From contig NZ_CP093379.1 in the NCBI RefSeq assembly GCF_022655595.1, positions 1,980,501 to 2,044,500 on the forward strand: DNA of 64,000 nt. Reading direction: 5' to 3'. Both the position numbers and the translations under genes were made by a program. The DNA comes from Ignatzschineria rhizosphaerae (GTDB lineage Bacteria > Pseudomonadota > Gammaproteobacteria > Cardiobacteriales > Wohlfahrtiimonadaceae). Below, piece by piece: positions 39,579-63,307 of the stretch (position 1 is its first letter; every line of letters starts with the position of its first letter). Below the pieces are notes generated by a model that was given only the letters and a program-made list of their open reading frames with translations, was not told the DNA's origin and ran no database searches.

Positions 39579-42500
39579 TTATAGAGTTTGTAGTGCATAG
39601 ACTTCTTGGGATTTTAAGTTTTGTACACTCTCACTGATTGCTAGAGCGCCGGCAATCGTTGTATAAAGAGGAATACGAAGATTTACCGCAGTTCTTCGAA
39701 TTGTGTGACTATCCTGAATACTTTGCACATCACTGTTTGTCGTATTTACGACAATCGCAATTTCTCCCGCTTTTATCGCATTGACAATATGATCCCCCCC
39801 TTCTAAGACTTTATTCACAACTTGAACAAAAAAGCCTTTCTCTTGAAGATATACCGCCGTTCCTTTCGTGGCACATAAGCCATAACCCTGTTCTAAGAAA
39901 TTTTTAGCCACAAGATCTAAAGCATGCTTATCTGTATCTCGTACTGATAAGAAGACCTTCCCAACTTTAGCAATTCTCTCCCCTGCCCCTAGCTGCGCCT
40001 TTAAAAAAGCCTCTGGGAATGTTTTTCCAATCCCCATCACTTCTCCTGTTGAGCGCATTTCAGGTCCTAAGATCACATCAACGCCGGGAAATTTAATAAA
40101 AGGAAATACCGCTTCTTTCACATAATAGTGCATTGGAATTGTTTCTAAAGTAACGCCTTGCGCTTTTAATGAGATTCCAGCCATCGCTTTTGCCCCTATT
40201 TTCGCTAGCGGAATATTTGTCGCTTTACTGACAAAAGGAACGGTTCTTGAGGCCCGAGGATTCACCTCTAATACATAAATTTCATCATCTTGCACCGCAA
40301 ACTGCACGTTCATTAAACCAATCACATTTAAGGCCTTTGCCATCGCTTTTGTCTGTAGCCGAATCTCCTCTTGAATCTCTTGAGAGAGTGAATATGCTGG
40401 CAATGAGCAACTTGAATCGCCAGAGTGAACGCCCGCTTGCTCGATATGTTGCATAATACCGCCGATTACTACTAATTCTCCATCAGAAACACAATCAACA
40501 TCAACTTCAATGGCATGATCTAAAAAGTGATCAAGAAGAACAGGGCTCTCTTCAGAAACCTTGACAGCTTCTATCATATAAGTCTCAAGCTCTGCATCAG
40601 AATGCACAATCTGCATCGCCCTTCCGCCTAACACATAAGAAGGTCTCACAACTAAGGGATAACCAATCTCATTGGCTTTCACGAGCGCTTCTCCTTCATC
40701 ATGCGCAATCCGATTAGGGGGCTGTTTTAAGCCTAAACGATGTAAAATCTGTTGGAATCTCTCCCGATCTTCTGCTGCATCAATACTATCTGCTGAAGTC
40801 CCAATAATATTGACTCCCGCTGTCGTTAAAGCGCTCGCCAGTTTCAACGGCTTTTGCCCACCATAATGGACTATCACGCCCATCGGCTTTTCGATACGAA
40901 TGATTTCTAATACATTTTCCAAGGTTAAAGGCTCAAAATAGAGTCGATCTGAGGTATCAAAATCGGTGGAGACTGTTTCAGGATTACAGTTGACCATAAT
41001 CGTTTCAAATCCCGCCTCACGAAGCGCTAATGATGCGTGCACGCAGCAGTAATCAAACTCAATCCCCTGCCCAATTCTATTTGGCCCACCGCCAAGAATC
41101 ATCACCTTTTGCCTATCACTTGGGCGCGCTTCGCACTCCTCTTCATAAGTTGAATAGAGATAAGCAATATCTGTCTCAAATTCTCCAGCGCTACTATCTA
41201 CTCGCTTATAAACAGGATGAAGATTGAGCGCTCCTCGTTTTTCTCGAACCGCTTTTTCACTCACCTTTAATAGATCAGCAATCCGAAAGTCTGTAAATCC
41301 TTTACGCTTTAATCGGCGTAATGTTGTGTAATCCATCAATTCCAAAGAGTTTGAAGACTGCTCAAGCAATGCTGTTAACGCCCGCTCTTCCTTAATTAAA
41401 TCTTCTAACTGTGCTAAAAACCACGGATCAATTGCAGATATTTCATGGATTTCAGTAAGGCTCATTCCTAAACGAAACCCATCCGCCACATAAAGCAAAC
41501 GATCAGGTCTTGGCGTTTTCATCTCGGCAACAATCTCTTCTCGATTACAGCTTTTGGGATTTAATCCTGATAATCCTGTCTCTAAACCAGATAATGCTTT
41601 TTGCAAAGATTCTTGGAAAGTTCTTCCCATTGCCATCACTTCCCCCACCGATTTCATCTGCGTTGTTAAACGATCATCGGCTAAAGGAAATTTCTCAAAA
41701 GCAAATCTGGGGACTTTTGTCACCACATAATCAATTGTTGGCTCAAAAGCTACGGGCGCTCTACCATTAGTGATATCGCTTTGTAACTCATCAAGCGTAT
41801 AACCCACCGCAAGCTTTGCTGAGATCTTTGCAATCGGAAAGCCTGTTGCTTTAGAAGCTAAGGCGGAAGATCTTGAAACGCGAGGGTTCATCTCAATAAT
41901 AATGAGCTCGCCATTAACAGGATTAACTGAGAACTGCACATTTGCACCACCTGAATTTACCCCAATCTCACGCAATACCGCTAAGCTTGCATCTCGCATA
42001 ATCTGATATTCACGATTCGTTAACGTTTGTGCTGGCGCAACAGTAATAGAATCCCCCGTATGAACGCCCATGGGATCAAAGTTTTCAATGGAGCAAATAA
42101 TCATCGCATTATCCTTTTGATCGCGAATGACCTCCATCTCATACTCTTTCCAACCTAAAACAGATTGCTCAACAAGCAGTTCATGAGTGGGCGAGGCATC
42201 AAATCCTCGCTCACAGATGGTTATAAACTCCTCAAAATCATAAGCAATTCCACCGCCCGATCCCCCCATCGTAAAAGAGGGGCGAATCAGGGTCGGAAAG
42301 CCAACTTTCTCCTGCGCTATAAGTGCATCCTTCATCGTATGAACCACATACGATTGTGGTGAATTGAGCCCAATTTTTAACATTGCTTCTTTAAAACGAC
42401 CTCTATCTTCCGCCTTATCAATCGCATCTTCATTGGCGCCGATAAGCTCTACCCCATATTTTGTAAGCACTCCATTTCGGCTAAGATCTAGAGCGCAGTT

Positions 42501-42788
42501 AAGTGCTGTCTGCCCACCCATATTGGGTAAAATGGCATCAGGGCGCTCTTTTTCAATAATCTTCTCTACCGTTTGCCATAAGATTGGCTCAATATAAGTG
42601 GCATCTGCCATCTCAGGATCTGTCATAATCGTCGCTGGATTGGAGTTTACTAAGATGACGCGATACCCCTCTTCTCGTAGCGCTTTACACGCCTGAGCAC
42701 CGGAATAATCGAATTCGCATGCCTGACCAATCACAATCGGGCCGGCACCAATAATTAAAATAGATTTGATATCTGTACGTTTTGGCAT
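39579..42788 (-). CDS. carB: Carbamoyl-phosphate synthase large subunit
   Basis: CarB makes carbamoyl phosphate from bicarbonate, ammonia and two ATP for pyrimidine and arginine synthesis. The 1069-residue protein has both ATP-grasp halves ([17 protein letters not shown] near 170; [15 protein letters not shown] near 710), each starting with a pre-ATP-grasp motif ([39 protein letters not shown]). It ends in an allosteric MGS-like domain. No damage is visible. It follows carA by 15 bases. The partner CarA lacks glutaminase residues, so this subunit would have to use free ammonia. Confidence 0.97.
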
Positions 42789-42803
42789 TTTTGGCTCCTG
42801 AAA

Positions 42804-43907
42804 TTATTTAGTCCACATGGCATCAATGAGTTGATCGAATAAAAAAGCGGCATCCCCTTCAGGATATCCCTGAAAAGAGTAAACACACTGATTCGGTAAT
42901 CGTATTCCTTGAACCGAATGATCAATCAATGAATGGTGCGTCACCAGCACCGTTTCAGGAAGGCTCTCTTCCAAAAGCACATAATGATGATTTTGAGAGG
43001 TCATCATCACTTTACCTGAAAAAATCTCTTGCACAGGATGGTTCACACTATGATGACCATGAGGCAATTTTGTAACCTTTCCGCCAAGCGCTATCCCTAA
43101 CAGCTGATGCCCTAATCCCACCGCAAAAAGCGGAATTTCACTCTTAATTAAGGAGGCAATTTCTGTTATGACAGTTTGATAAGCAGAAGGGTCTCCTGAA
43201 CCATTTGAGAGAAATAATCCACTGGGATGAAGCGCTAAAATTTCACTTGCCATTGTTGACCTAGGGACAACAGTAACGTGGCAACCACTCTCTGCAAAAT
43301 GGCGTAAAATATCTTTAGTTACCCCAAAATCCATCACCACAACATGAAGCGGTTTTTCACTAATCCCCTGATGAAACCCACGCCCTAACTGCCACTTCCC
43401 CTCAGACCAATCATAGCCTTTATGATCAGAAGTAAGCGCGTCTACTTCTGATATCTGCCATGCTTGCGCCTTTGTTGTAGCAGCTGTAATATCAAGGTTT
43501 TCTCCAGTCACAATACAGCCAGCTTGTGACCCAAAGGTTCGTAGATGCCGCGTTAAGCGCCTTGTATCTATCCCCGCAATCGCTACAAGCCCATGCCTAA
43601 TAAGATAGCTCTCCAGCTTTTCTTCGGATCTAAAATTACTCGTAAAAAGCGGTAAATCACGAATAATAAGCCCCGCAGCTTGCACGTGATCTGATCCTCG
43701 ATCTTCTTGATTAATGCCCGTATTACCAATATGAGGGTAACTAAATGCGATCAGCTGATCTTTAGATGCCGGATCAGTTAATAGCTCTTGATAACCGATC
43801 ATTGCCGTATTAAATACGACATTACCAACGGTTGATCCTTCTTTCCCAATCGAGATACCACTAAATGTTGTGCCATCTGCCAAAACTAAGGTTGCGGGGT
43901 TTGTCAT
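42804..43907 (-). CDS. carA: Carbamoyl-phosphate synthase small subunit with inactivated glutaminase site
   Basis: CarA normally hydrolyses glutamine and channels ammonia to CarB. The N-terminal small-subunit domain is intact (VFNTAMIGYQELLTDPASKD, GIDTRRLTRHLR). The class I amidotransferase domain is complete in length (367 residues; E. coli 382), but its active site is not. The nucleophile elbow reads FAVGLGHQLL instead of FGxCLGHQLL, giving Gly264 (codon GGA at 43116-43118) for Cys. The catalytic HPE reads YPE (Tyr348, TAT at 42864-42866). The oxyanion loop NGPGDP reads NGSGDP. Glu350 remains. The frame is open and otherwise conserved, so the subunit is probably made and kept for structure. 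An attenuator-like hairpin lies in its leader. Confidence 0.93.
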   Translation of the reverse strand: MTNPATLVLADGTTFSGISIGKEGSTVGNVVFNTAMIGYQELLTDPASKDQLIAFSYPHIGNTGINQEDRGSDHVQAAGLIIRDLPLFTSNFRSEEKLESYLIRHGLVAIAGIDTRRLTRHLRTFGSQAGCIVTGENLDITAATTKAQAWQISEVDALTSDHKGYDWSEGKWQLGRGFHQGISEKPLHVVVMDFGVTKDILRHFAESGCHVTVVPRSTMASEILALHPSGLFLSNGSGDPSAYQTVITEIASLIKSEIPLFAVGLGHQLLGIALGGKVTKLPHGHHSVNHPVQEIFSGKVMMTSQNHHYVLLEESLPETVLVTHHSLIDHSVQGIRLPNQCVYSFQGYPEGDAAFLFDQLIDAMWTK

Positions 43908-45949: not shown

Positions 45950-46789
45950 GTTGTTTACACTTCAGTGTTAAAATAATTTTCTAAAACTTCATAAGGCGTT
46001 AAACCATTAATACCCTTATGAGGTTTTACTGTGTTGTAATAGTTCAAAAATCGTTTTAGCTTCTTTTTCCGATCATCTGAACTGATAAACTCCTCCTGAT
46101 TATGCCACATTTCCATGAGTGTTCGAATGACTCTTTCTGCTTTTCCATTCGTTTGAGGGCAAGCTGGCTTTGTAAACTTTTGATTAATCTTATGTGTTAG
46201 ACACATTTCGACAAAGGCATGTTCTGATGTACCTTTATACTCACGACCATTATCCGAATAGGTGCATTCTACAGTATAGGGACACTGTTCTAACAGATCC
46301 CATCGAAGAAATTCAGCAGCACTAAACTGTGATTTATCAGGATAAATACCGGCATAAAGTTCTCTTGAAAAATCATCAATTCCTACAAATAAATACTCTC
46401 TAGTGCGATTTTTAAGATCTCCTTTTAAAAGAGGGAGCCGTTTAGTATCCACATGGACCATCTCGCCAGGATAGTTTTTGTTATAACGTTTAGCCCTCTT
46501 TTTAAGTTTCTCTTCAATAGATTTTTCAATCTTTGCAAGACGTTTAATGCCATACTTAATTGTTCTATAACGTTCATTTTTACTAGCTAATGGCACAAAC
46601 AAGTTCAATCTACCTTGTTTTAGTACTTTATAGATCGTAGGTCTGCTTACCATAAAACGCTCAGCTAGATAGGTTACGGTAAATTTTTCTTGATGATGTA
46701 ATCGCCAAATCTCTTCTCGATGAAACGGCGTTAATTTTGTTTTTCGATGGATATTCATAACAGTATTTTCTCCTAATACTGTAAACAAC
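45950..46789 (-). mobile_element. IS481-like insertion sequence
   Basis: The 840-bp element is bounded by inverted GTTGTTTACA (45950-45959) and TGTAAACAAC (46780-46789), containing the TGT...ACA ends expected in IS481 elements. It holds one transposase gene. I see no clear target-site duplication (flanks ...GGCGG and GCGAT...). It sits between mqo and a cupin gene without breaking either. Confidence 0.75.
45955..46758 (-). CDS. IS481-family DDE transposase
   Basis: The 267-residue protein has an N-terminal helix-turn-helix (LAERFMVSRPTIYKVLKQ near 35) and an rve-type DDE core: first Asp in GEMVHVDTKRL, second in CTYSDNGREYKG, Glu in TNGKAERVIRTL. This matches the IS481 layout. ATG 46758 with AGGAGA upstream is preferred to a TTG at 46788 that lies in the terminal repeat. 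It is intact and probably functional. Confidence 0.85.
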   Translation of the reverse strand: MNIHRKTKLTPFHREEIWRLHHQEKFTVTYLAERFMVSRPTIYKVLKQGRLNLFVPLASKNERYRTIKYGIKRLAKIEKSIEEKLKKRAKRYNKNYPGEMVHVDTKRLPLLKGDLKNRTREYLFVGIDDFSRELYAGIYPDKSQFSAAEFLRWDLLEQCPYTVECTYSDNGREYKGTSEHAFVEMCLTHKINQKFTKPACPQTNGKAERVIRTLMEMWHNQEEFISSDDRKKKLKRFLNYYNTVKPHKGINGLTPYEVLENYFNTEV

Positions 46790-46800
46790 GCGATAAAATC

Positions 46801-47190
46801 CTACAGATTATTAGCTTTAAATGTTAAGTTCTTAGCATCATCATAATCTACATAAGCACGAATCCATGGGGCATCATCTAATAAACGCCACTTATGTCCT
46901 GTCCCACTATTATCTTGAGCGAGTAAAATATCCCCAGGTTTAATCACAAATTTCTCACCGGTAAATGTTTCAAACTCTAAAGTGCCGGAAAGCGTAATCA
47001 CAAAGCGAGGGGTTGGATCTTGATGCCAATCAAATGATCCTCCTGAAGTTGTTTCGCGAAAATAGAGTTTATTCACTTCAATCGGCAAACCAATAAAATC
47101 TCCGCGCTCCCCCTCCTTCATTTCCAAAGTTCCTTCCTCAAAGAGAGAGTTTCCATCGCTTCCTGTCCACATTCTAATACATCTAATCAT
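46801..47190 (-). CDS. Cupin-domain protein
   Basis: The 129-residue protein is a single cupin barrel. Cupin motif 1 is present as SFDWHQDPTPRFVITLSGTLEFE near 52-75, and motif 2 as PGDILLAQDNSGTGHKWR near 96-113; the His residues could bind a metal. Function is not known. AAGGAG lies 8 bases before the ATG. The IS ends 11 bases beyond its stop, so any original terminator may have been displaced. Confidence 0.75.
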   Translation of the reverse strand: MIRCIRMWTGSDGNSLFEEGTLEMKEGERGDFIGLPIEVNKLYFRETTSGGSFDWHQDPTPRFVITLSGTLEFETFTGEKFVIKPGDILLAQDNSGTGHKWRLLDDAPWIRAYVDYDDAKNLTFKANNL

Positions 47191-53657: not shown

Positions 53658-54443
53658 TTACAATGCCGATGAGAGCTCAATCCCACGCTGTAATAAGGTT
53701 TCACGAATCTCTTGAGCAAATTCAAGCGCTGTAATACCATCGCCATGAATACAAACGGTATCAGCCGCAAGCTTCACAGTTTTACCTGTTGTTGCCGTCA
53801 CTGTTCCTTGCTCAATCATCTGCAAAACTTGCGCTATCGATTCTTTGGGATCTGTGATCAGCGCATCGGCTTCTCGTCTTGAAGTTAACGTGCCATCTTC
53901 TTGATATGTACGATCAGAGAAAACCTCATTCATCACCGGAATTTCTAACGCTACCCCAGCTTTAATCAATTCACTGCCCGATAGCCCATAAAGAATCGCT
54001 TCGCCTTTAGAGACATCAGCAACCGCATGGGCAATCGCTTGTGAGAGATTGGCATCGGTCGCTGCCATATTATAGAGCGCACCATGGGGCTTTACATGAT
54101 GAAGCTTCCCCCCTAAAGCTTGTAAAAAACCTTGAAGCGCGCCTACTTGATAAACCACTAAACCATAGACTTCTCTTGGCGTCATCGCAATATTACGGCG
54201 CCCAAAGCCTTGCAGATCTAAAAAACCAGGATGCGCGCCAATGGCAATATTATTTTCTAACGCAAGCTCCACGGTTTTTAGCATCGTTTCAGGATCTCCT
54301 GCATGAAAACCACAAGCGATATTAGCAGACGTAATCAGTGGTAAGATCTTGGCATCATTTCCCATCTTCCACGGGCCAAAACTTTCTCCTAAGTCACAAT
54401 TAAGGTCGATTTTTAATGCCTTATTACTTAAATTATTACTCAT
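53658..54443 (-). CDS. pxpA: 5-Oxoprolinase subunit A (LamB/YcsF family)
   Basis: PxpA with PxpBC cleaves 5-oxoproline (pyroglutamate) to glutamate with ATP. The 261-residue protein begins [19 protein letters not shown] and has the family motifs [16 protein letters not shown] near 40 and [16 protein letters not shown] near 70. Its start overlaps the pxpC stop by 8 bases. AGAGG lies before the ATG. The NRAMP gene follows. Confidence 0.95.
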
Positions 54444-55416
54444 AATATACCTCTTGATCTCTTTGGGGCTGCGCTAAGATATACTCAACGCTCTCTAAAT
54501 ATTGCTGCTGTACTTCTAGCTTCTCTTTCGCTCTTAATTCATCTATAAGCTTAAACTGTACCTTTTTTCGTGCTGGTAAATAAGCCAGCTTCCAGAGTTC
54601 TGCTTGTGGAATCACGGCAATTCTAGGGTATCCCCCCGTACTTTGGCATTCAGCAGCTAGTACAAGAGGCTGCCCACTTGGGGGAACTTGTATCACTCCT
54701 TCAAATACGCCTTGCGATCGCATCTCTAAAGGCTTATCTCTCATTAAGCGATTGCCTTCTAGTCGAATACCCATACGATTACTATTACTACTAATCTCCC
54801 ACTCTTCTTCAAAAAAACGCATCTGAGAAGCATCATCAAACTGGTCAAACTCGGGGCCCTTTAAGACAAAAATCGTACTACTAATATAGGTTCGACTAAA
54901 GGCTCTTACGCCCACCGCTTGGATAATCTTATGGGTTGGCTTTTTAATCGCTAAACGATCTCCCTTTTGTAAAAGGGAACCATCCCCTTTATGCCCCCCT
55001 AAACGGTTTTTAATATCCGTACTGTAAGAGTCCATCACTTTAAGCGTATCAAAGCCACCAGCAACAGCTAAGTAACTATACATTCCCGAGTTATAAGCTG
55101 GCTTTAATTCAACCGTTTGTCCCTTTTTAATAAAGGTCCGCCAGCCATGCCACCCTTGCCCGCGGCCATCAATAATGATGGTACAGTTAGAGCCTGTCAC
55201 GGAAATCCAACAATCTTGATGGAACAAAAATTTCACCGGCGTCATCACACTAACCTCTAGCGCGGGGCTATTTCCAGGATTTCCCACTAAGCGATTAGCA
55301 AGATGTAGTGATACGCCATCAATCGCCCCCGACTTACCAACGCCCATATGTGCATAAGAGAGCCGACCATAATCTTGGATTGTCGTTAAAATCCCTGCAT
55401 TAATAACTTCCATCAT
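54436..55416 (-). CDS. pxpC: 5-Oxoprolinase subunit C (KipA, biotin-dependent carboxyltransferase-like)
   Basis: PxpC belongs to the KipA/AHS2 family. The 326-residue protein begins [20 protein letters not shown], then [22 protein letters not shown] near 26, and has [29 protein letters not shown] near 237. It overlaps pxpB by four bases (ATGA type) and pxpA by eight, so the three are translated together. Confidence 0.94.
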
Positions 55417-56090
55417 AAAAGCACATCCTTAGCCACAAAGCGAAGCTGATCACCCGGTAAAAAGAGCGAGGGAATTTCCCTATTCACATCAAAAAATGAA
55501 GTTTCGGTATTGCCGATAATTTGCCAGCCTCCAGGAGATTCTCCAGGATAAACACCTGTCTGAGAACCCCCTATCCCCACGCTACCCGCGGGAATTTTCA
55601 AACGGGGCGTAGCTCTACGATCTGTATGAATAGACGGATCTAGCCCGCCTAAATAGACAAATCCCGGCATAAATCCCACAAAGTAGACAGTATAAATGGG
55701 CGCAGTGTGCTTTTGTACAAGTGCCTTGGCGCTAATTCCATGAATTTTGGCAACTTCTAATAAATCTGGGCCCTTTTCGCCCCCATAAGTCACGGGAATC
55801 TCTACCAGCTTGCCTTTAAATTTCTCGGTAAGATCTAACTCATTGGCAGCTTTCCAAAATTTTTCAAGAACCTGTGAAACCTCCACACGACTGCCGGTGT
55901 AATAGGGATTTAAAAAGAGCGTTAAATTATTCATCCCCGGAACAATATCGATAATAAGGCCTTTTAAGGTATCACTACTTGCGATCTGTTCCCCAACCCA
56001 CCATATTTTTTGCTGGTCAGCTAGGCTCACTTCACCACAAACAGATAAAGTAATCCCCCTATCACCCACAGAATAGATCTCTATGGACAC
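55413..56090 (-). CDS. pxpB: 5-Oxoprolinase subunit B (KipI)
   Basis: PxpB is the AHS1/KipI partner of PxpC. The 225-residue protein has FVGFMPGFVYLGGL near 143 and RRATPRLKIPAGSVGIGGSQ near 165, the standard AHS1 motifs. It is first in pxpB-pxpC-pxpA-NRAMP. AGGAGG-like GAGGAG lies before the ATG. Confidence 0.94.
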   Translation of the reverse strand: MSIEIYSVGDRGITLSVCGEVSLADQQKIWWVGEQIASSDTLKGLIIDIVPGMNNLTLFLNPYYTGSRVEVSQVLEKFWKAANELDLTEKFKGKLVEIPVTYGGEKGPDLLEVAKIHGISAKALVQKHTAPIYTVYFVGFMPGFVYLGGLDPSIHTDRRATPRLKIPAGSVGIGGSQTGVYPGESPGGWQIIGNTETSFFDVNREIPSLFLPGDQLRFVAKDVLL

Positions 56091-62377: not shown

Positions 62378-63307
62378 ATGGACAATATACCTTTTAGATG
62401 GGAAGGCCGCTTTGATGGCGATACTGCCGAACATCGCCGTTTTTTTCAAATCATCAATCAGCAAGAAAAGGCTGATTTTACCCTGTTAGGCTTTGCATCT
62501 GATGAAGGTATTCGCCGTAATCAAGGACGTTTAGGCGCTAAGAATGGTCCTAACCATATCCGTAAGCAACTCGCAAGTTTACCTGTTCACCGCTCATTTA
62601 CCCTCAATGATGCAGGGAATGTCATTTGTGAAGATGAAGACTTAGAAGCCGCTCAAAAAGTGCTTGCGGATAAGATTCAACAAGTTCTAAGTGACAAGAG
62701 TCTGCCTATTGTCCTGGGCGGCGGTCATGAAATTGCGTTTGGTAGCTTTCAAGGTGCTTTTAATCATCTCTTAACACAGAATAAGCCCTTCCAACTCGGC
62801 ATTATTAACTTCGATGCCCATTTTGATCTTCGTCAGGCAGATGTTGTTACCTCCGGCACGCCTTTTTTAAATGCTGCAAACCTCTCAAAATCGCACAATA
62901 TTGATTTTAACTATCTCTGTCTTGGGATTGCTGAGCATGGCAATACACGCATCCTTTTTGATACCGCAGATGAGCTTGAAGTGACTTATATTCTCGATAA
63001 AGCGCTCGCACCACACAAAATTAATGAAGCGCTAAGCCACGTTCAAGCCTTTATTGATCGCATGGATTATCTCTACATTACCGTTGATCTTGATGTATTT
63101 CCGGCATATCTAGCGCCAGGAGTTAGTGCACCAGCCGCAAAAGGGCTCTCCCTAGAAGCTTTTGAAACCCTCTTCAATACAATTACAGCATCCAAGAAAG
63201 TAATTTTGCTCGATATTGCTGAATGTAACCCTCAATTTGATATCGACAACCGAACGGCCAAACTCGCAGCCTTTATCGTCTATCAATATATTAATAATAA
63301 TCTTTAA
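62378..63307 (+). CDS. hutG: Formimidoylglutamase HutG (arginase superfamily)
   Basis: HutG hydrolyses N-formimidoyl-L-glutamate to glutamate and formamide in histidine degradation. The binuclear Mn ligands are visible: GGGHEIAFGSF near 113, NFDAHFDLR near 145 and TVDLDVFPAYLAPGVSAP near 232. Length is 309 residues, typical. DEGIRRNQGRLGAKNGPNHIR near 46 is the HutG-type N-terminal motif. Agmatinase or another ureohydrolase activity cannot be fully excluded. AAGGAG lies 6 bases before ATG; gltS follows after 17 bases. Confidence 0.88.
   Translation: MDNIPFRWEGRFDGDTAEHRRFFQIINQQEKADFTLLGFASDEGIRRNQGRLGAKNGPNHIRKQLASLPVHRSFTLNDAGNVICEDEDLEAAQKVLADKIQQVLSDKSLPIVLGGGHEIAFGSFQGAFNHLLTQNKPFQLGIINFDAHFDLRQADVVTSGTPFLNAANLSKSHNIDFNYLCLGIAEHGNTRILFDTADELEVTYILDKALAPHKINEALSHVQAFIDRMDYLYITVDLDVFPAYLAPGVSAPAAKGLSLEAFETLFNTITASKKVILLDIAECNPQFDIDNRTAKLAAFIVYQYINNNL

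Follow-up and report, generated by a model that had tools for sequence, protein, structure and literature searches.

Two kinds of carbamoyl phosphate synthase (CPS) bear most closely on the locus described here. In the E. coli enzyme CarAB (CPS II), glutamine is used via Cys269 and His353 of the small subunit, and both residues are required for glutamine hydrolysis (PMC6245113). E. coli CarB can also form carbamoyl phosphate from ammonia, but at high concentration only; the amounts required are described as very high and probably unphysiological (PMC6245113). In human CPS1 the catalytic Cys is replaced (Ser294), an inactive glutaminase-like S2 domain is kept and ammonia is the nitrogen source, so that loss of the Cys with an ammonia-only function is already known for that enzyme (PMC4655335). 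The product of vertebrate CPS I is used by ornithine carbamoyltransferase (OTCase) (PMC6022934). Ammonia is likewise the nitrogen source in the carbamate kinase-like synthesis of carbamoyl phosphate in Pyrococcus, whose enzyme belongs to another protein family with an amino-acid kinase fold (PMC6022934, PMC6245113, PMC13260591). For bacterial CPS, no report of a natural loss of the glutaminase was found in the open-licence literature, an absence that is weak evidence in itself.

The window, which is the whole stretch of 64,000 nucleotides of Ignatzschineria rhizosphaerae DNA that was analysed, carries a carAB pair with the following features:

42804..43907, minus strand: carA, encoding a 367-aa CPS small subunit with a putatively inactive glutaminase site (ORF and translation; TIGR01368, 359.6 bits)
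43512..43889, minus strand: CPSase_sm_chain domain, residues 7-132 (PF00988, 151.5 bits), the portion retained by the truncated carA of four sister species (G003-G006)
42855..43340, minus strand: class I glutamine amidotransferase fold, residues 190-351 (PF00117, 111.8 bits), inactivity inferred
43197..43199, minus strand: Ser237, giving NGSGDP instead of NGPGDP (Pro242 in E. coli; alignment)
43116..43118, minus strand: Gly264, codon GGA, counterpart of the E. coli nucleophile Cys269 (alignment)
42864..42866, minus strand: Tyr348, codon TAT, counterpart of the E. coli catalytic His353 (alignment)
42858..42860, minus strand: Glu350, corresponding to E. coli Glu355 and the sole triad residue retained (alignment)
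42789..42803, minus strand: carA-carB gap of 15 bases with a Shine-Dalgarno-like AGGAG
39579..42788, minus strand: carB, encoding a 1069-aa CPS large subunit (ORF, TIGR01369, Pfam and alignment)

A preliminary description of this DNA had reported that CarA, though full length and in frame, has Gly for the nucleophile Cys, Tyr for the catalytic His and NGSGDP for NGPGDP. Translation and alignment with the E. coli protein confirm each of these points, and no internal stop interrupts the 367 codons. The nucleophile elbow reads FAVGLGHQLL and the HPE region FQGYPEG, with the loop downstream of HPE partly deleted. Further changes relative to CarA of E. coli K-12 affect Gly313-Phe314 (His-Tyr), Ser47 (Ala) and Lys202 (Thr). 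Thus, of the features expected of the small subunit of a glutamine-dependent CPS II, both domains are present, while the Cys of the elbow and the His of HPE are missing. The protein nevertheless scores 359.6 bits on the NCBI 'glutamine-hydrolyzing' model TIGR01368, above its cut-off of 307.35, so automatic annotation would mislabel it; a curated model has here been shown to label a glutaminase-dead CarA as 'glutamine-hydrolyzing'. The AlphaFold2 model of this CarA (mean pLDDT 90.1) has E. coli CarA as its best PDB match (1cs0_B, TM 0.95), followed by human CPS1 (5dot, TMq 0.84-0.85). Because of these matches the fold is predicted to be intact, although the catalytic residues are gone.

CarB was described at the outset as normal, and this holds: the full-length protein reaches 1500 bits on TIGR01369 (cut-off 1027) and has the two ATP-grasp halves and the oligomerisation and MGS domains expected of a CPS large subunit. 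Twenty-five positions that are catalytic or near-catalytic in E. coli were compared across the family in an alignment that left out G001 and G010; 20 of them are identical to E. coli in all 13 CarB sequences. At position 208, where E. coli has Glu, all 13 carry Gln, including those that accompany an intact CarA, and positions 210, 37, 359 and 754 are variable in the family. Also retained are the tunnel gate residues C232, A251 and A314; human counterparts of the gate residues are named in PMC4655335. The locus therefore resembles E. coli CarAB in having adjacent genes for the two subunits, the same domain order, most of the ATP-grasp positions compared and the tunnel gate, and differs from it in the two catalytic residues of CarA.

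The loss is shared by the nine genomes sampled from the genus (G000-G008, G000 being that of the window species). Ignatzschineria is a fly- and carrion-associated genus. Four of its genomes (G000, G001, G007 and G008) encode a full-length CarA, in all of which Gly occupies the Cys position, while the His position is filled by Tyr, Ile, Ser and Tyr, respectively, so that His is kept in none. In G003, G004, G005 and G006, carA is only 171, 178, 171 and 189 codons long and the glutaminase domain is absent; in these four species, on contigs of 0.5-1.4 Mb, the truncated gene stops 9-11 bases before a full-length carB. As far as the open-licence literature search goes, such a pairing of a full-length CarB with a small subunit that lacks the glutaminase domain is undescribed. 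The remaining genome, G002, has neither carA nor carB but retains OTCase, argG and carbamate kinase. It is inferred to be that of Ignatzschineria larvae, a carrion and fly-larva bacterium, and it must either obtain carbamoyl phosphate from another source or have an incomplete arginine synthesis. An intact glutaminase is encoded in 0/9 genomes and, judged by residues and domains, its loss is genus-wide rather than peculiar to the window strain.

This recurrence also settles whether the unusual CarA could be a sequencing error, a pseudogene or a product of misassembly, a doubt raised in the preliminary description for the Gly and Tyr codons. Substitution or domain deletion is found in separate assemblies of all eight carA-bearing species of the genus, so sequencing error is excluded and this explanation as a whole can be set aside with near certainty. 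A second intact carA would equally have overturned the claim, but none was found in the genome of the window strain (one contig, 3.07 Mb, 98% complete), where CPSase_sm_chain occurs once; plasmids outside the assembly are not excluded.

The wider family sample comprises 18 genomes. In the sister genus g2, presumably Wohlfahrtiimonas, four of six genomes (G009, G012, G014 and G015) retain both Cys and His, and the other two (G016 and G017) carry Gly and Thr at these positions. The C-terminal part of CarA is intact in G010, where the match starts at a contig end, and carAB is found in neither genome of genus g4 (G011 and G013). In G010, two genes lie between the carA fragment and carB (L063:509-2237), one matching AAA_21 weakly (28.5 bits, cut-off 27) and the other without any Pfam match; they look like an inserted module.

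Outside the family, full-length or near-full-length CarA was present in 32 control genomes, and Cys and HPE are retained in all 31 proteins read (the best CarA of each genome, G056 excluded). A scan of the genome collection with CarB gave 80 loci of other genera, kept from at least 592 matching stretches; 77 have a CarA-like ORF, full length in 76, and Cys and HPE are kept in 76/76. A DNA pattern for the Gly elbow matched 24 places in 20 of 369 genomes of the class, and only the window's own place lies within a CarA. This pattern would overlook G007, G008 and similar relatives, in which the elbow differs at other positions. A survey of the class with PF00988 gave a match in 324 of the 369 genomes; it covers only the best-scoring places, and the frequency of truncated carA cannot be derived from it.

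The destination of carbamoyl phosphate was assessed from gene content. Each of the nine Ignatzschineria genomes has one PF02729 carbamoyltransferase, whereas each of the other nine family genomes has two. The single enzyme of the window strain is an OTCase (TIGR00658, 404 bits), and those of the other eight genomes are 88-96% identical to it, which is why the genus is inferred to lack PyrB. The second enzyme is an aspartate carbamoyltransferase in G012 and an OTCase-like protein just under the cut-off in G011, the others being untyped; g4 may lack PyrB as well. The genes argC, argJ, argB and argD form one cluster in the window strain, and argG is present in 18/18 family genomes. With OTCase and arg genes present and aspartate carbamoyltransferase absent, carbamoyl phosphate in the genus should go to arginine and not, by this route, to pyrimidines, a conclusion drawn from gene content with flux unmeasured. 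The UMP site of CarB, at the positions of the E. coli enzyme, is altered in the truncated-carA species: three of them carry Glu at 994 and Ala at 1025, and the fourth lacks 993 and has Glu at 1017 and Ser at 1025. Such changes would fit a lost pyrimidine feedback.

Taken together, these data make it likely that carAB of the genus encodes a CPS that is unable to hydrolyse glutamine, uses free ammonia and feeds OTCase for arginine synthesis. Both the lack of glutamine hydrolysis and the ammonia activity are inferred, as there are no activity data. In the proposed mechanism, ammonia from bulk solution would enter the large subunit via the old tunnel or a nearby opening and attack carboxyphosphate at the first ATP-grasp site, the carbamate then moving on to the second site, as it does in E. 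coli. In the window species the dead glutaminase domain would persist in folded form, as a scaffold on which constraint has weakened. Carbamoyl phosphate would be passed to OTCase and on to arginine, pyrimidine synthesis from carbamoyl phosphate having apparently been lost, and the change would be affordable given an ammonia-rich life in decaying tissue and fly larvae. The comparison of CarAB sequences revealed no residue changes that clearly improve ammonia affinity. At the position of E. coli CarA Gly293, G000 and G007 have Val, G008 has Met and G001 has Ala; G016 and G017 have Val, and the intact CarA proteins of g2 have Ala. In the human enzyme this position is taken by Gln318, which blocks the old tunnel (PMC4655335), and the bearing of these changes on an ammonia tunnel is suggestive at most.

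The pattern of selection helps to weigh this reading against its rivals. Pairwise dN/dS of CarB is 0.04-0.09 within the genus, pairs with a truncated carA included, and 0.01-0.06 between intact g2 genomes. For the glutaminase domain, values are 0.14-0.21 among G000, G007 and G008, 0.35 for G001-G007 and 0.09 for G016-G017, as against 0.02-0.06 in intact g2 pairs; the dead domain evolves at 2.1-3.4 times the CarB value in the same pairs. Constraint on the N-terminal domain of CarA is weakened too (0.15-0.29 in full-length dead, 0.14-0.36 in truncated and 0.05-0.10 in intact pairs), so the relaxation extends beyond the glutaminase. Many pairs are close to saturation at synonymous sites, which makes these values rough, and several pairs gave no value. 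The overall pattern is read as full selection on CarB and a weaker selection on CarA that preserves assembly, not catalysis. When neutral drift of the dead domain was simulated, the frame stayed open in 253-328 of 2000 copies at a distance of 0.1, in 21-45 at 0.25 and in only 0-8 at 0.5 or more; the synonymous distance between G000 and G008 in this domain is about 1.5. Since frames so rarely stay open at comparable distances, the dead glutaminase domain of full-length CarA is not free to drift.

One explanation of this constraint is that the domain has acquired a new role, for example in conducting ammonia or as an allosteric scaffold, instead of being a leftover. This would be compatible with the ammonia-dependent synthase proposed above, and its frame, open in four species, its dN/dS below 1 and the fold retained in the model all speak for it. 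It is nonetheless regarded as a possibility of the weaker sort, given that four sister species do without the domain, that it evolves distinctly faster than CarB and that a need for foldedness alone, sparing the complex with CarB, would account for the constraint. Far less can be said for a separate glutaminase or amidotransferase that supplies ammonia to CarB in trans. No direct support for it was found, although PF00117 does not cover all glutaminase families. The PF00117 matches in the nine genomes of the genus are guaA- or pyrG-sized proteins (named by ORF size), the four dead carA products and a 56-aa fragment in G008. Other than that fragment they include no detached glutaminase domain, and hence the genus seems to retain no glutaminase of this class that could serve CarB. 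Supply in trans is accordingly thought very improbable. Free amidotransferases of 190-260 aa, of undetermined types, are present in g2 and missing from the window's genus.

A more serious objection is that carAB is a decaying remnant and that carbamoyl phosphate is supplied by an anabolic carbamate kinase, by a possible arginine breakdown through arginine synthetase (ArcE) and OTCase, or by a ureide carbamoyltransferase. Carbamate kinase is indeed encoded in all nine genomes of the genus, as well as in 4/6 g2 genomes, G010 and G011, though not in G013. The window strain has two copies, one adjoining fdrA (PRK06091; L213:9473-12198), an arrangement that resembles ureide or oxamate carbamoyltransferase clusters. 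I. larvae, which has lost carAB and kept OTCase and argG, may depend on carbamate kinase; since it manages without carAB, the synthase is not indispensable in the genus, and carAB is likewise absent from genus g4 (0/2 genomes). With 20-50 mM ammonium bicarbonate, moreover, a CPS-less E. coli expressing the carbamate kinase of P. furiosus could grow in the absence of arginine and pyrimidines; ArcE reportedly substitutes for ArcA in ArcC-bearing organisms that live on amino acids (PMC13260591). In T. kodakarensis, however, carbamate kinase alone was insufficient (PMC13260591). Arginine deiminase cannot be invoked as a source of carbamoyl phosphate either, no arcA match having been obtained in any of the 18 family genomes, and the window strain makes its own ornithine (argCJBD). 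Above all, a remnant would drift, and CarB has a low dN/dS in every pair of the genus with a value, which suggests that the synthase is still in use wherever it is present. Decay of carAB is for these reasons considered unlikely, without being dismissed. The earlier inference that this bacterium makes carbamoyl phosphate from ammonia is thus supported by the genus-wide loss of triad or domain; that CarB itself uses the ammonia remains an inference, because carbamate kinase offers an alternative ammonia-based source.

The preferred reading, an ammonia-using CarAB dedicated to arginine, is best understood as convergent with vertebrate CPS I. Like that enzyme, the window CarA keeps a glutaminase-like domain without the catalytic Cys, and the product appears, from gene content alone, to be dedicated to OTCase and not to pyrimidines. 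Unlike it, the genus has two subunits encoded by separate carA and carB instead of a single fused polypeptide, carries Gly rather than Ser and has lost the His as well, and four of its species lack the entire glutaminase domain.

The number of origins was examined with trees. On a CarB tree of 19 rows, from which G001 (split over contigs) and G010 (partial) were left out, the losses in the genus and in G016/G017 need two changes. Constraining the nine loss rows to one clade costs 15.4 log units, with an AU p of 0.073, so that a single origin is not formally rejected. The glutaminase-domain tree does not discriminate between the losses as one clade (p 0.355) and g2 as one clade (p 0.218). In the tree of the CarA N-terminal domain, G016 and G017 group with the window's genus (support 90/89, not starred), perhaps through mutual attraction of fast rows. 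Probably, but not certainly, the Cys-to-Gly change in g2 is independent of the loss in the genus: two origins are favoured, not proven.

Opinion therefore leans only slightly towards the broader interpretation, that this family holds a bacterial equivalent of CPS I, a synthase restricted to ammonia and dedicated to arginine, which arose probably twice and of which living species preserve each step. The steps of this joint reading would be an active glutaminase, a dead glutaminase, a deleted domain (N-terminal domain plus CarB) and, in I. larvae, no synthase at all. If true, it contradicts the idea that every bacterial CPS takes its nitrogen from glutamine; at the level of sequence, the genus already breaks the rule of glutamine as donor given in a 2018 review. 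Its species would represent natural stages of a transition from glutamine to ammonia otherwise described for animal CPS. The N-terminal CarA domain with CarB would constitute a minimal, glutaminase-free CPS suited to studies of the ammonia path.

An ammonia-rich niche such as decaying tissue was suggested from the start, and it fits what is described of these bacteria. Ignatzschineria and Wohlfahrtiimonas are key members of a cadaver-decomposing network; the nitrogen set free there is mostly ammonium, and the two genera are listed among those that could exchange ornithine and/or arginine (PMC10914610). The change in the enzyme would thereby be linked to the ammonium-rich life of carrion bacteria. 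Urease was rejected as a general source of the ammonia: it exceeds the cut-off in only two of the nine genomes of the genus (G002 and G006) and is absent from the window strain.

Two further observations concern the neighbourhood of carAB in the window. An IS481-like transposase (45955-46788; 183.8 bits, under the cut-off of 224) lies between mqo and a small gene at 46801-47190, an insertion that is absent at that place from G007 and G001. Genes for the 5-oxoprolinase subunits PxpA, PxpC and PxpB and for the formimidoylglutamase HutG are found at 53658-56090 and 62378-63307, and these amino-acid catabolism functions are in keeping with a protein-degrading life.
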